DNA from: Ancylobacter koreensis
GTDB lineage: Bacteria; Pseudomonadota; Alphaproteobacteria; Rhizobiales; Xanthobacteraceae
Assembly (NCBI RefSeq): GCF_023016525.1
Contig: NZ_JALKCG010000002.1
Location: 500,001 to 564,000 of the forward strand
Reading direction: 5' to 3'
Length of the DNA: 64,000 nucleotides
The notes under the pieces were generated by a model. That model searched no databases. It was not told where the DNA came from and worked only from the letters and a program-made list of their open reading frames with translations. The translations under genes were made by a program, and so were the position numbers. Each line of letters starts with the position of its first letter. Positions within the stretch are counted from its first letter, which is position 1. Below, one piece after another: positions 2,908 to 36,103 of this stretch.

Positions 2908-4359
2908 GTGGCGAACGACGATTCGAACAAGGGCGCTGAGGACAAGCCGGAAGCGGGCGCGAAGGCGCCCCGCCGGAAGCCGCCGACGCTTGATCTTTCC
3001 GCGCGCGACGTAACCCCGCCCGAGGATGCCAAGACGGATGCCGCGCCGGCGCCGGATGGCGTTTCCGATGTGCCGCCCCCTGTCACGCCGGTGCCCGACG
3101 ACGCGGCGACCGCCGCCACCGCGTCCGACACGCCGCCGCTGGTGGACGAGACCCCGCCCGATGCCGCCGCCCCCGCCACCGAGCCGACCGGCGAGCCGCC
3201 GGTGCCGCCGGCGAAGCGCCCGGCGCGCCAGCTCGGCGTGTTCGGCGTCATCGTCGCGGCGCTGGTCTCCGGCGTGCTGGGCGGGGCGGTGGCGCTCGCC
3301 GTGGTCTCCACCTTCTACAGCGCCGAGGACAATATCGACGCCATCACCGAGCTGGAGGCGCGCGCGGTGGATCTGCGCCAGCGCGTCGAGACGCTGGAGG
3401 CGCGGGGCGAGGCGTCGCCGGCCGGCGAGGCGACGGCCGCCGCGAGCGGCCCCACGGCGCCGGACGAACTCGCCGTGCGGCTCGATGCGCTGGAAAGCGG
3501 GCTCGACGCGCTCGGCCGCAAGGTCGACACGCTGCCGGCCCCCGCCGCTCCGGCCTCTGACGGCGCCCCTGCGGCCGAGGTGACGGCGCTGGCCGGCCGC
3601 CTCGACGCGCTGGAGCAGAAGGCCGCCTCCGCGCCGGCTCCCGCGCCTGCCGCCTCGCCCGAAGACGTTGCCGCCGTCGCCGCGCGTATCGGCGCGCTGG
3701 AACAGCGCGTCGCGTCCATTCCCGCCCCCTCCCCGGCGGCGTCCCCGGCCGATGTCGAGGCGGCGCAGGCGCGCATCGCCGCGCTGGAAGGCAAGCTCGC
3801 CGCCATGGCCGAAAGCCAGCGCGCCAGCGGGCAGGGCGCCGCCCAGCTCGTCGCGCTCGCCTCGCTGCGCGATGCCGTGGCTGCCGGCCGGCCTTTCGCC
3901 ACCGAACTGAAGGCGGCCCGCGTGCTGCTTGGCGAGGAAGCCGCCCCGCTGGCGGCGCTCGATCCGGTCGCCAATGCCGGCTTCGGCGACGGCCCGGCGC
4001 TCGCCGCGCGCCTCAAGGCCGCGACCGCCCCGGCCGCTGTCGCCGCGTCGCCCGCTCCCGCTGCCGGTACCTCGACCGTCGAGGGTGTCGTCGAACGGCT
4101 GTGGAACAGCGCGCAGAATCTCGTCGTCATCCGCCGCGCCTCCGGCACCTCGGGCGATCCGCGCCTCAGTGAGGCCGAGGCGGCGCTGGCGCGTGGCGAC
4201 TATGCCGGCGCGCGCACCGCACTCGCCGGCGCGCCGGAAGCCGACCGCGCCGCCGTCCAGCCGGTGATCGCGGCCCTCGATGCGCGGCAGGCGGCGCTCG
4301 ACGCCATTGCCGGCCTCAATCAGCGCGTGCTCGCCACGCTCGCGGGAGGTGCCCAGTGA
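2908..4359 (+). CDS. Mitofilin/Mic60-like inner-membrane coiled-coil protein
   Basis: 483 aa from a GTG start at 2908 preceded by GAGG/TAGGG. The first ~105 residues are an acidic Pro/Ala-rich cytoplasmic segment, followed by one membrane helix at about 108-136 (LGVFGVIVAALVSGVLGGAV), then a long periplasmic region of repeated LxxRVxxLE and RLDALE segments broken by Ala-Pro linkers (coiled coil), and a conserved helical C-terminal domain with the shape of mitofilin. Known biology: alphaproteobacterial Mic60 is encoded in the haem cluster beside hemD and hemY-type genes and has been linked to inner-membrane invagination and envelope contacts. Here the position is exactly that. Its stop overlaps the next start (GTGA). 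An earlier in-frame ATG exists at 2722, but it lies inside hemD. Confidence 0.85.
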   Translation: MANDDSNKGAEDKPEAGAKAPRRKPPTLDLSARDVTPPEDAKTDAAPAPDGVSDVPPPVTPVPDDAATAATASDTPPLVDETPPDAAAPATEPTGEPPVPPAKRPARQLGVFGVIVAALVSGVLGGAVALAVVSTFYSAEDNIDAITELEARAVDLRQRVETLEARGEASPAGEATAAASGPTAPDELAVRLDALESGLDALGRKVDTLPAPAAPASDGAPAAEVTALAGRLDALEQKAASAPAPAPAASPEDVAAVAARIGALEQRVASIPAPSPAASPADVEAAQARIAALEGKLAAMAESQRASGQGAAQLVALASLRDAVAAGRPFATELKAARVLLGEEAAPLAALDPVANAGFGDGPALAARLKAATAPAAVAASPAPAAGTSTVEGVVERLWNSAQNLVVIRRASGTSGDPRLSEAEAALARGDYAGARTALAGAPEADRAAVQPVIAALDARQAALDAIAGLNQRVLATLAGGAQ

Positions 4360-5978
4360 TCCGCCTCGTCGTCTATCTCCTCGTCCTCTCCCTCGTCGCC
4401 TTCGGCATCGCCTGGCTCGCCGACCGGCCCGGCTCGGTGGTGATCGACTGGCAGGGCTGGCAGATCGAGACCAGCATCCTCGTCGCGGCGAGCGCGCTGC
4501 TGGCGCTGCTGGCGGCAACCATCCTGCTGTGGACGCTGGTGCGCCTCATCGTCCGCTCGCCGGACATCATCGCCTTCTCCTGGCGGGCGCGCCGGCGCAA
4601 CCGGGGCTGGAGCGCGGTGACGCGCGGCCTCGTCGCGGTCGGCTCGGGCGACGCCATCGGCGCGCGCCGCGCCGCCAACGATGCCGAACGCTTCCTCGGC
4701 CGCGAGCCGCTGGCCCAGCTTCTCGCCGCGCAAGCGGCCCAGCTTTCCGGCGACGCCGCCGGTGCCGAGGCGGCCTTCCGCGAGATGACCCAGACGCCCG
4801 CGACGCGCCTGCTCGGCCTGCGCGGGCTGCATGTCGAGGCGCGCAGGCGCGGCGATGCCACCGCGGCCCTGCTCGCCGCCGACGAGGCCGCCCGCCACGA
4901 GCCGGGCCTCGCCTGGGCGGCGGATGCGGTGATCGAGGCGCGCTGCCTTGCCGGCGACTTCGCCGGGGCGCTCGCCGTGCTGGAACGCGAGGCGGCCCAT
5001 GGCGGGCTGGAGCGCGCCACCCACCGCCGCCGCCGCGCCGTGCTGCTGGCGGCGCAGGCGCAGGCGCTGGAACTCTCCGAGCCGGCGACGGCGCGCGAGC
5101 GGGCGCTGGAGGCCACCCGCCTCGCGCCGACGCTGGTGCCGGCCGCCGATATCGCCGGGCGCCTGCTCGGCGCGGCGGGCGACGCGCGCAAGGCCGCCAA
5201 GATCCTGGAGACCGCCTATGCGAGCACGCCGCACCCCGATCTCGCCGACACCTATCTGCACCTGCGGCCGGGCGATTCCTCGCGCGAGCGGCTCAAGCGC
5301 ATTCGCACCCTGACCTCGCGCATGCCGGCGCACCCAGAGAGCGCCATGGTGCTGGCGCGCGCGGCCATCGACGCGCAGGAGTTCGATGTCGCCCGCACCG
5401 CGCTGGCGCCGCTTCTCGGCGATCCGACGCAGCGGGCCTGCCTGCTGATGGCGGAGCTGGAAGCCGGCGAGAGCGGCGATGTCGGCAAGGCGCGCGAATG
5501 GACCGCCCGCGCCGTGCGCGCCCAGCGCGATCCTGCCTGGGTGGCGGACGGCGTAGTGGCCGAGGCGTGGGGGCCGGTGTCGCCGGTCACCGGCAAGCTC
5601 GACGCCTTTGAATGGAAGCTGCCGCCGGGCGTCGCTACGACGCCGATGCTGGAGAACGAGGCCGAGCGCGTGAAGGCGGCCATCGCCGCCGCCATCGAGG
5701 CGCGGCCGGAGCCCGTGGCGCCGGTGGTGGACCTTACCCCCGACGAGCCATCGCCGAGCCTTGCCCCCGATAGCGAGGCGCGGGACCTTCCGGCGAAGGA
5801 GACGCCGGTCGAGATCGAGCCTTCGCGGCCGGTGAGTATTCCGGTGGCGAAGCCCGCGCCGGCAGCACCTGCGGCGGCGCCGGTGGTGGCGATGCCGCAT
5901 CTGCCGGACGATCCCGGCCCCGAGGGCCCGTTCGCCGACGAGGCCGGCAGCCGGCCGCGTCCGCCCTTCGGGGTGTGA
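4356..5978 (+). CDS. hemY: HemY-type TPR inner-membrane protein (Orf52-like)
   Basis: 540 aa, GTG start overlapping the previous stop by four bases. Two N-terminal membrane helices (about 3-22 and 40-62) around the motif RPGSVVIDWQGWQIETS mark the HemY N-terminal domain. The rest is TPR-like helical repeats ending in a low-complexity Pro/Ala tail of ~130 residues. Despite the name no porphyrin-oxidising activity is established for this family. In alphaproteobacteria the partner gene next to Mic60 is called Orf52. Coupling to the mitofilin gene suggests they act together in envelope organisation. The transcript probably ends at the hairpin at 6023-6048. Confidence 0.88.
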   Translation: MIRLVVYLLVLSLVAFGIAWLADRPGSVVIDWQGWQIETSILVAASALLALLAATILLWTLVRLIVRSPDIIAFSWRARRRNRGWSAVTRGLVAVGSGDAIGARRAANDAERFLGREPLAQLLAAQAAQLSGDAAGAEAAFREMTQTPATRLLGLRGLHVEARRRGDATAALLAADEAARHEPGLAWAADAVIEARCLAGDFAGALAVLEREAAHGGLERATHRRRRAVLLAAQAQALELSEPATARERALEATRLAPTLVPAADIAGRLLGAAGDARKAAKILETAYASTPHPDLADTYLHLRPGDSSRERLKRIRTLTSRMPAHPESAMVLARAAIDAQEFDVARTALAPLLGDPTQRACLLMAELEAGESGDVGKAREWTARAVRAQRDPAWVADGVVAEAWGPVSPVTGKLDAFEWKLPPGVATTPMLENEAERVKAAIAAAIEARPEPVAPVVDLTPDEPSPSLAPDSEARDLPAKETPVEIEPSRPVSIPVAKPAPAAPAAAPVVAMPHLPDDPGPEGPFADEAGSRPRPPFGV

Positions 5979-6018
5979 TCCGCGCCGGCCTCCGCCCGCG
6001 CGGCGGCGGGACAAGCGC

Positions 6019-6048
6019 AAAAAAAAGCGCGCCATGCGGCGCGCTTTT
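6019..6048. terminator. Intrinsic terminator, strongest leftward
   Basis: GCGCGCC-ATGC-GGCGCGC stem (6027-6044) flanked by A8 on the left and TTTT on the right. Read leftward it has a U8 tail, ideal for ending the small RNA or cobT. Read rightward it has four U and may also end the hem block. Confidence 0.8.
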
Positions 6049-6197
6049 CGACCCGTTCAGGGGTCCCCGCCAGAGGCCGACCGCTCGTCAGGCGGCCGGA
6101 GGGTATGAGACGGCCGGAGTACATCCGTCCTGACCGTCGTCCATCCGGCGAGGCGCTGACGAAGCGCCAGCTTGCCGGAAGCCCTGTTCTGGCTGGG
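6019..6197 (-). ncRNA. Candidate ~180-nt structured small RNA
   Basis: No coding gene is credible here. On the minus strand a promoter-like pair (TTGAAA, 18 bp, TATAGG; 6233-6204) is followed about 180 bases later by a strong intrinsic terminator with eight U. The predicted transcript has a long-range closing stem (GCCAGA near 6192 with TCTGGC near 6073, extended by CCC/GGG), an inner hairpin TCCGGC...GCCGGA containing GCTGGC-GCTTC-GTCAGC, a second arm GTCAGG...CCTGAC, and a 3' hairpin GACCC-CTGAAC-GGGTC before the terminator. The length resembles 6S RNA but the branched shape does not clearly match, and 6S normally sits elsewhere in alphaproteobacteria. Ends are approximate. It could also be the cobT 3' UTR. 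Confidence 0.5.
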
Positions 6198-6203
6198 TTG
6201 AAA

Positions 6204-6233
6204 CCTATATGGGGGCCGCCCGGCGGGTTTCAA
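6204..6233 (-). promoter_or_regulatory. Promoter-like element for the small RNA candidate
   Basis: Minus-strand -35 TTGAAA (6233-6228) and -10 TATAGG (6209-6204) are separated by 18 bp. The expected start is near 6197. No coding sequence lies downstream on this strand before the terminator. Confidence 0.5.
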
Positions 6234-6273
6234 GGGCGAAGACGCGACGATTGCCGGCAACGCTATGTGCCGC

Positions 6274-6402
6274 CGTCATCCTGGACGGCCGCAGGCCGAT
6301 CCGGGAACGCGGGCAAGGGTGGGAGCGGGCTGGAGGACGATCCCGGCTCCCGCTTGGCTCGGCCGGGATGACGACCTTTTCAGCCTTCGGCCGGGATGAC
6401 GT
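6274..6402. repeat. Dispersed palindromic repeat, family B copy 1
   Basis: Left arm CGTCATCCTGGACGGCCGCA...GATCCGGGA and inverted right arms ending GGCCGGGATGACG (two copies of that end, near 6374 and 6400). The same unit occurs near 34180, 38954 and 50078. It sits between the small RNA promoter and the cobT stop. No gene is seen in 6234-6408. Confidence 0.75.
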
Positions 6403-6408
6403 CTTTTC

Positions 6409-8355
6409 TCAATGCACCTTCATGGTCGGCAGCGCGACGGCGCCCGTGCGCGGCGCCCGCGCTGCGGGGCGTGCGGGCTGCGGCGCCGCGCGCGAGGCGC
6501 GCTCGCTGAACAGCTCGGCGAGCTTGTCGGTCATTGCCCCGCCGAGTTCCTCGGCATCGACGATGGTGACGGCGCGCTTGTAGTAGCGCGTCACGTCATG
6601 GCCGATGCCGATGGCGATCAGCTCGACCGGGGACTTGTCCTCGATCTGCTGGATCACCCAGCGCAGGTGCCGCTCCAGATAATTGCCCGGGTTCACCGAG
6701 AGGGTGGAATCGTCCACCGGCGCGCCGTCCGAGATCATCATCAGGATGCGGCGCGATTCATTGCGCGCCAGCAGGCGGTTATGCGCCCAGTCGAGCGCCT
6801 CGCCGTCGATGTTCTCCTTCAGGAGCCCCTCGCGCATCATCAGGCCGAGATTGCGCCGGGCGCGGCGCCAGGGGGCGTCGGCGGACTTGTAGATGATGTG
6901 GCGCAGGTCGTTCAGCCGGCCGGGCGCGCCCGGCTTGCCGGCGGAGAGCCAGGCTTCCCGCGCCTGTCCGCCCTTCCACGCCTTGGTGGTGAAGCCGAGG
7001 ATCTCGACCTTCACGCCGCAGCGCTCCAGCGTACGTGCCAGAATGTCCGCACAGGCGGCGGCGACGGTGATCGGGCGCCCGCGCATCGAGCCGGAATTGT
7101 CGAGCAGCAGCGTCACCACCGTGTCGCGGAAGTCGGTGTCGCGCTCGCGCTTGAAGGACAGCGCCTGCATCGGGTCGGTGATGATGCGGTGCAGGCGCGC
7201 CGGATCGAGCAGGCCCTCTTCGAGGTCGAACTCCCAGCCCCGGTTCTGCTGCGCCATCAGCTTGCGCTGAAGCCGGTTGGCGAGGCGCGCGACGATGCCG
7301 GAGAGGTGCACGAGCTGCTTGTCGAGATAGGCGCGCAGCCGCGCCAGTTCCTCGGGATCGCACAGCTCATCGGCGTTCACCGTCTCGTCGAAGCGCGGCG
7401 TGAAGGGGTGGTACTCCGGCGGGCGCGGCTCGGCCGGCGTAGCGTTCTGCGGCCGCCAGGGCTCGGACGAATCGTCGGATTCGCCCAGCTCCGCGTCGTC
7501 GGACAGCTCGGAGTTCGGCTGGTCCTGCTGCTCCTCGGATTCTTCCGGATTCTGGTCGGAGGCGAGATCGGTGTCGACCTCGGTCTGGCCCTCGGCGTTC
7601 TCGTCCTCCTCGGAATCCGCGCTCTTGCCGGAATCCTCCTCGCGGGTGTCGTCCGCCTCGGTGGAGGGGTCGTTGTTCTCGTCGAAGGGGGCGATGTCCT
7701 CGCCCATGCCGAGTGAGGACAGCAGGTCGCGCATCGCCTCGGCGAAGCGGGTCTGGTTGTCGGCCGAGCCGGCCAGTTCGTCGAGCGCGGCGGCGCCGTG
7801 CTCCTCGATGAAGCCGCGCCACAGATTGACCATCTCGCGCGCCGCCGCCGGCGGGGCCATGCCGGTCATGCGCTCGCGCAGCATCAGCGAGAGCGCATGC
7901 TCCATCGGTGCGTCCGAGCGGTCGGCGAGGTTGGCGAAATTGGCCTTCTGGTAGCGGTCCTCCAGCATGGCCGAGAGGTTCAGCGCCACGCCGTCCATGC
8001 GCAGGGCGCCGAGCGATTCGCAGCGGGTCTGCTCGGCCGCCTCGAAGGCGGCGCGCGCCTGCTGGCCCATCGGCACGAGCCGCTGGTGCACCTTGGGGTC
8101 GTGGCAGGCCATGCGCAGCGCCATGGAATCGGCATGGCCGCGCATGATGGCGGCGTCCTGCTTCGACATGCGGCGCGCCGGCTCGGGCAGGCGGGCACGG
8201 CCATCCGCATAGCCCGGCTTCTCCGAGCCGAAGGTCACGTCGATCTCGCGATTGCCCGCGATGGCGCGCAGGCAGCCGGTGACGGCGCGCTTGAGCGGCT
8301 CGGTCGGGGCTTCCTTGGGCGGCGTGCGGGTGGTGCGGTTCGAGGTGGTGGACAT
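6409..8355 (-). CDS. cobT: Cobaltochelatase subunit CobT
   Basis: 648 aa, family-typical length. With CobS and CobN it forms the ATP-dependent aerobic cobaltochelatase that inserts Co(II) into hydrogenobyrinic acid a,c-diamide. Domains: a helical N-terminal region, a strongly acidic stretch at about 210-305 rich in E/D/S/Q, then a C-terminal von Willebrand A domain with an intact MIDAS motif DNSGSMRG near residue 420 and [12 protein letters not shown] later. It lies 79 bp downstream of cobS, in the same direction. cobN is not in this window. No cobalamin riboswitch was recognised upstream of the pair. Confidence 0.97.
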
Positions 8356-35961: not shown

Positions 35962-36103
35962 CCCGCCATCCTCGCATCACCCGCGAGCCGTCCCGCCGCC
36001 CGGACCCGTGAGTCCGGAGGCTAACGCCCGACAGCGCGATGCGCCCTCGGGCGGCAATCGGCTTTGCGGGTGTCTCCGCGCGGAAAGGGAGCCGAGCGAA
36101 CGC

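Follow-up and report, generated by a model that had tools for sequence, protein, structure and literature searches.

A candidate small RNA with an RpoH-type promoter and an invariant hairpin loop between hemY and cobT in Ancylobacter

The locus, its promoter and its terminator

The window analyzed here, a stretch of 64,000 nt from Ancylobacter koreensis, holds a gap between two convergent genes, a hemY-like gene that ends at 5978 and cobT, which ends at 6409. An initial annotation had placed a candidate small RNA on the minus strand of this gap, and inspection of the sequence located every promoter, stem and terminator element that it named. The features of the locus are as follows, in window coordinates.

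4356-5978, plus strand: hemY-like TPR gene (TIGR00540, E 1.5e-24, but under the family cut-off)
6409-8355, minus strand: cobT (TIGR01651, over the family cut-off)
6019-6199, minus strand: putative RNA gene of ~180 nt, its start placed from the promoter and its end from the terminator
6229-6234, minus strand: -35 box CTTGAA, framed one base earlier than the TTGAAA (6233-6228) of the initial annotation
6207-6213, minus strand: -10 box CCCATAT, RpoH-type, 15 nt after CTTGAA (TATAGG, 18 nt after TTGAAA, in the initial annotation)
6019-6048, minus strand: intrinsic terminator present in the sequence, GCGCGCC (6044-6038) and GGCGCGC (6033-6027) followed by U8 (6026-6019)

The letters of the promoter originally read as TTGAAA-18-TATAGG are present, and they read better as the RpoH-type CTTGAA-N15-CCCATAT than as a sigma-70 promoter. 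The putative RNA gene thereby carries a promoter of the type that marks RpoH-dependent sRNAs, and control by the heat-shock sigma factor (RpoH) would be the natural reading. Within the window, the pattern CTTGNA-N15-CCYATMT has one exact match, located at the RNA promoter, and two matches when one mismatch is allowed, vs. 0.24 expected by chance. Among 51 core copies, a count in which one Kaistia copy was entered twice (L058, cut short, and L082), a loose promoter pattern occurred in 34, with CTTGAA as the -35 box in 23, CTTGCA in 5, CTTGCG in 3, CTTGTA in 2, CTTGTC in 1 and CTTGAC in none. The form CTTGNN-N15/16-CC(C/T)AT(A/C/T)T was found in 29 of the 51, and five more had it with weaker -10 letters only. 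The loose pattern was missing from the other 17, which include four tandem second copies and some that are off by one base. Judged by eye, one second copy in Kaistia (L290) apparently has another promoter.

Heat-shock genes of the genus served as a yardstick. HSP20 loci, examined at 30 of 33 places, carried CTTGC(G/A)-N15/16-(CCTATCT, CCTATTT or CCCATAT) in 18 of the 30, namely in 18 of the 23 that fall in the two better-scoring groups and in none of the seven in the weaker third group. A CTTG-box promoter was detected by pattern at 11 of 30 groES loci (in 17 genomes), and all 11 read CTTGAC, which we take to be the setting of CIRCE repeats. The ends of the -35 boxes differ, with the RNA having mostly CTTGAA and the HSP20 genes mostly CTTGCG. 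Since the -10 boxes of RpoH-like and CTTGAC promoters are alike, the assignment to RpoH turns on how the -35 box ends. According to the accessible parts of the respective sources, RpoH1 sites of Sinorhizobium meliloti read CTTGAA-N15-16-CCTATAT (PMC4843759; PMC8844928), and in R. etli the RpoH-like cTTGaa-N16-CgATaT stands against the SigA-type cTTGAc-N16-cnATAA (PMC4167512). The parts available of PMC3616915 and PMC3441632 contain no written-out consensus.

A simple promoter and terminator scan reported neither element of the RNA, the promoter probably because it belongs to a type other than sigma-70 and the terminator probably because the stem continues into the U tract. Terminators of a similar type occur in many relatives, and in several others a U-rich terminator has no clear form. 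At seven loci (L042, L043, L049, L056, L067, L072, and L287), the 3′ end is a second conserved hairpin that may serve as a terminator. Its stem letters in the copies outside Ancylobacter are CCCGUAG or CCCGCAG on one side and GCCGGAG or CCCGGAG on the other; this hairpin was not seen in Ancylobacter and had no Rfam match.

Fold, kissing loops and the invariant loop

The 184-nt transcript has a predicted minimum free energy of -97.7 kcal/mol vs. -78.5 (sd 4.3) for shuffled sequences (z -4.4; 0 of 200 as good). In its architecture, P1 and P2 close a junction that bears three arms. The initial annotation had the closing stem, the GACCC/GGGTC hairpin and the GC stem with U8 right; its two inner arms give way to three, of which two are predicted to kiss. 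The elements of the fold are listed below.

6188-6193, minus strand: P1 5′ strand GCCAGA, pairing with 6069-6074; 5/5 modeled pairs change on both sides somewhere
6069-6074, minus strand: P1 3′ strand TCTGGC, partner of the P1 5′ strand
6182-6185, minus strand: P2 5′ strand AGGG, pairing with CCCT at 6100-6103; two-sided changes in 4/4 pairs, 83-88% of cells paired
6100-6103, minus strand: P2 3′ strand CCCT, partner of the P2 5′ strand
6142-6181, minus strand: arm 1, with apical loop TTCGTCA (6157-6163); two-sided changes in 12/12 pairs
6107-6139, minus strand: arm 2, the core hairpin; two-sided changes in 10/13 pairs
6118-6128, minus strand: invariant apical ACGGATGTACT of arm 2, in 30/30 genus copies and in all rows of alignments A3 (37) and A4 (33)
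6077-6099, minus strand: arm 3, with apical loop CTGACGA (6085-6091); two-sided changes in 7/8 pairs
6157-6162, minus strand: kissing strand UCGUCA (arm 1 loop), pairing with UGACGA at 6085-6090
6085-6090, minus strand: kissing strand UGACGA (arm 3 loop), partner of 6157-6162
6050-6065, minus strand: small hairpin GACCC (6065-6061) / GGGTC (6054-6050), in the sequence and in the minimum-energy fold

Comparison among relatives strongly supports the predicted closing stem and three-arm fold. Alignment A1, which comprises 28 of the 30 genus copies (L025 and L031 were omitted on account of long insertions) and was not fitted to the structure of the model, gave a 44-pair consensus fold with two-sided changes in 18 pairs. 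Alignments A3 (37 copies) and A4 (33 copies) consist of chosen representatives from 35 and 30 sources, respectively, and were fitted to the structure of the model, so that their pair counts lean toward it; in addition, four of the 33 copies in A4 were found by the covariance model itself. With that bias, standard pairs filled 94.2% of cells in A3 vs. 37-45% in slid controls, with two-sided changes in 37 of 44 pairs, and 92.2% of cells in A4 vs. 36-44%, with two-sided changes in 40 of 44. A broad alignment, A2, was discarded, as it contained five antisense matches and the viral-contig sequence L096. The covariance analysis suggested by the initial annotation thus yielded compensatory changes in related genomes, and its proposal of a free-standing small RNA, complete with promoter and terminator, gains comparative support. 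Among the aligned genus copies, the stretch of the GACCC/GGGTC hairpin varies.

Six bases in the apical loop of arm 1 can pair with six in that of arm 3 (UCGUCA/UGACGA in the window), and the pairing is kept with other letters as ACGUCA/UGACGU in L067, L079, and L280 and as GCAUCA/UGAUGC in L072; the strands of L290 (AUGUCA/UGACAA) retain five of six pairs. Over nine hand-picked copies, a set outside which lie the contact-free L042, L043, and L286, 50 of 54 pairs were Watson-Crick, and 576 of 362,880 re-pairings equaled this value; an earlier test on seven copies was weaker (288 of 5,040). The contact was absent from the two aspS-rnd copies of Kaistia tested (L042 and L043) and from L286, and arm 1 of L042 and L043 instead bears four-base loops of the GNRA type. 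Since these copies do without it, the kissing contact is not obligatory. Covariation thus indicates that the two loops form a 6-bp kissing helix in most, but not all, of the lineages tested.

The apical loop of arm 2, ACGGAUGUACU (6128-6118), is identical in every aligned copy, and the longest invariant stretch of the RNA is confined to this one apical hairpin rather than spread over a junction. Beneath the loop lies a stem of three pairs whose middle pair is C-G, not G-C, in L280 and L286. The invariance was in part selected for, since most copies outside the genus were found via the core letters; free of this selection are the genus copies, found by blastn, and L280, L286, L287, and L290, found by the covariance model, which itself favors the loop. 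Conservation of the loop on a covarying stem suggests that it is the working part of the molecule.

Occurrence and comparison with known RNAs

A blastn search with window positions 6012-6236 retrieved homologues in all 30 genomes of the genus, and all 30 copies adjoin both hemY and cobT. This conservation, together with the strong covariation, shows that the feature is more than chance, and it looks like a real, undescribed small RNA that would be transcribed from its own gene. Four of the 30 genomes (G004, G011, G017, and G022) have a tandem second copy; these second copies (L020, L022, L025, and L027) lie ~255-295 bases away, and none of them shows the promoter pattern.

Outside the genus, the RNA is sporadic. 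Searching named genomes for the core gave 33 stretches. Ancylobacter records account for 17 of these, and the search also hit Kaistia, Prosthecomicrobium pneumaticum, Microvirga rosea, Chthonobacter rhizosphaerae, and records named Bosea and Mesorhizobium. When 297 genomes of the order were searched with a covariance model built from 37 copies, 15 of them, representing 8 of 122 genera and seven families, had the RNA (E<=0.01), under strict filters by which weak matches are lost. The window itself matches model R2 with 136.9 bits at 6066-6197. With the first covariance model, the other genera of the family (59 genomes) gave no match better than E 0.595. Both aspS and rnd are seen at eight of 12 non-genus loci, rnd at one whose other side is out of view, and neither at three (the gene names were checked for L042 and L043). 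Since other lineages carry it at other loci, the RNA does not appear to serve one neighbor. An ancestral site next to rnd was considered and rejected, as 30 rnd loci of the order, from 29 other genomes and the window's own and including some rnd genes that are not beside aspS, had neither core letters nor a match to R2 (E<=0.5). At the level of the class, the exact 16-mer core was present in two of 385 genomes, that of the window and one other. Taken together, the searches of the order, the class and the rnd loci indicate an RNA that is patchy within one order and changes its genomic place. The sole class-level match outside the genus (L094, genome G701) has the core hairpin at 1464-1570, again with the bulged A and here flanked by a stem of 8 bp; it falls within a reading frame that presumably encodes a polyphosphate kinase.

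Plasmid or phage origin found no support, as no homologue was present in 50,697 phage records and a single partial match of 33 bases was found in 72,556 plasmids. The core 16-mer also occurs in seven viral contigs, for six of which only the flanks were read. In the remaining sequence (L096, 7138-7154, IMG/VR contig 3300017700_000880), the same core hairpin stands on a different 6-bp stem. It lies in a gap ahead of phrog_206, the head scaffolding gene of a phage-like contig, and is followed by a terminator-like hairpin. Model R2 scored this sequence at 31 bits, within the range of coding look-alikes (30-32), and the core with fewer than two mismatches was absent from 79 other contigs that have a related capsid gene. 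Two matches to the one-mismatch pattern (L080 and L088) look like chance by eye.

The absence of a known-RNA assignment in the initial annotation was borne out, since no family of Rfam 15 scores above its gathering cut-off at the locus. At E<=10, the top-ranking match, Leu_leader with 20.5 of the required 50 bits, falls in the terminator region and is a terminator look-alike. Searches of 12 and of 7 loci of relatives against Rfam returned tRNAs as the only matches. Elsewhere in the window, the ffh sRNA (RF01793, 49.3 bits, 36010-36061, plus strand) is the sole Rfam match. 6S RNA (RF00013) is also a free-standing structured RNA, yet each of the 30 genus genomes encodes it separately, with a single model match per genome that sits elsewhere (G000:C12:351816-351972 in the window's genome). 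CsrB/RsmZ RNAs show a GGA-containing hairpin loop to a protein, and the core of the Ancylobacter RNA holds GGAUGU, which we take to resemble a CsrA SELEX site. A CsrA sponge was nevertheless rejected, as CsrA was found in none of 15 carriers and none of 14 other genomes in a search whose control was positive in 3 of 14 known genomes. Likewise, Y RNA was rejected, with Ro60/TROVE protein in none of 16 carriers and in 2 of 14 non-carriers (control positive in 1 of 14 known genomes).

Interpretation and rival explanations

We propose that an independent gene at this locus encodes a structured RNA of ~180 nt. Its transcription would start from a promoter of its own of the RpoH (sigma-32) type, probably upon heat or protein-damage stress, and end at the intrinsic terminator. 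The closing stem and the contact between arms 1 and 3 would fix the molecule as a scaffold on which the arm-2 loop is displayed as its functional part, and this loop may bind in trans to a partner, most likely a protein recruited or titrated by the RNA during stress. We assign this reading a probability of roughly one half. The comparisons show the conservation, the fold, the covarying kissing contact, the unchanging loop and the promoter match; transcription, RpoH dependence and action in trans are what we infer from them, and that the partner is a protein is our guess. One conserved protein is favored over many mRNAs, given that the stems covary from family to family but not a single letter of the loop changes.

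A different use of the loop is the main rival to this reading, and we regard it as possible but doubtful. Here, the RNA would be a trans-acting antisense sRNA whose unpaired loop CGGAUGUAC is an mRNA-pairing seed, probably with Hfq on the U-rich tail, and target mRNAs would be expected to share a GUACAUCCG-like site. The RNA's own promoter and U8 terminator would suit such a regulator, as would the tandem or second copies in several genomes, which recall sibling sRNAs, and the order offers a precedent in AbcR2, described in the accessible part of its source as an RpoH1-dependent trans sRNA (PMC8844928). However, a seed has no need of a three-arm kissing scaffold, a loop invariant over seven families would require every target to retain its site, and a clear U-rich terminator is missing in several relatives. 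An improbable alternative is a ligand-binding or catalytic RNA in which the kissing-loop scaffold forms a pocket around the invariant loop. A complex tertiary fold with an invariant 11-nt segment is what such an RNA might look like, but the longest invariant stretch is limited to a single apical hairpin and does not extend over a junction, and the Kaistia copies tested dispense with the kissing. Output as a riboswitch is excluded, since no single downstream gene is conserved across lineages.

Still less credit is due to a role in cis, as a leader of rnd in Kaistia or a 3′-UTR product of cobT in the window. The Kaistia copy does lie just upstream of rnd and in line with it, and the window's RNA lies downstream of cobT, also in line. 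Nevertheless, no in-line gene comes next downstream in Ancylobacter, where hemY is convergent, the RNA has a promoter and terminator of its own, and the same RNA is found at unrelated loci elsewhere. A diverged 6S or other housekeeping RNA, to which a free-standing gene well conserved in the genus might point, is already contradicted by the separate 6S gene in 30 of 30 genomes, by the lack of a fitting Rfam family and by its rarity in the order (15 of 297 genomes), and we give it next to no weight.

Returning to the RNA as a stress-induced scaffold for a trans partner, we tentatively suggest, at appreciably lower confidence, that it may represent a new class of RNA driven by the heat-shock sigma factor, in which a kissing scaffold presents an 11-nt loop, the same in seven alphaproteobacterial families, to a conserved RNA-binding protein. 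If true, the stress response would include an RNA component that works through a protein distinct from both CsrA and Ro60. The family is well supported, unmatched by Rfam 15, distinctive in fold and carried by culturable soil and water bacteria; its RpoH-type promoter offers a testable condition (heat shock) and its invariant loop a testable part.

Small RNAs driven by stress sigma factors have precedents, including the RpoH-dependent SorY (RF02651) and CcsR of Rhodobacter sphaeroides, and the SorY model scored 14.6 bits at the locus vs. a cut-off of 111. AbcR2 of S. meliloti presumably differs from the Ancylobacter RNA in fold. According to PMC8844928, this alphaproteobacterial sRNA has a promoter that fits the RpoH1 consensus CTTGAA-N16-CCTATAT, and it acts via anti-Shine-Dalgarno motifs. 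The Rhizobiales-1 motif of Weinberg 2010, a table entry in PMC2864571, is a candidate RNA of the same order that has no Rfam accession, and its identity with the present RNA is neither shown nor excluded. Literature searches by core letters and by genus plus RNA terms returned nothing on the RNA, which is weak evidence of absence given that few subscription journals were covered. Next to the RNA, on the side of cobT, positions 6260-6410 of the window contain repeated CATCCCGGCCGA-like units that, judged by eye, are probably an intergenic repeat.
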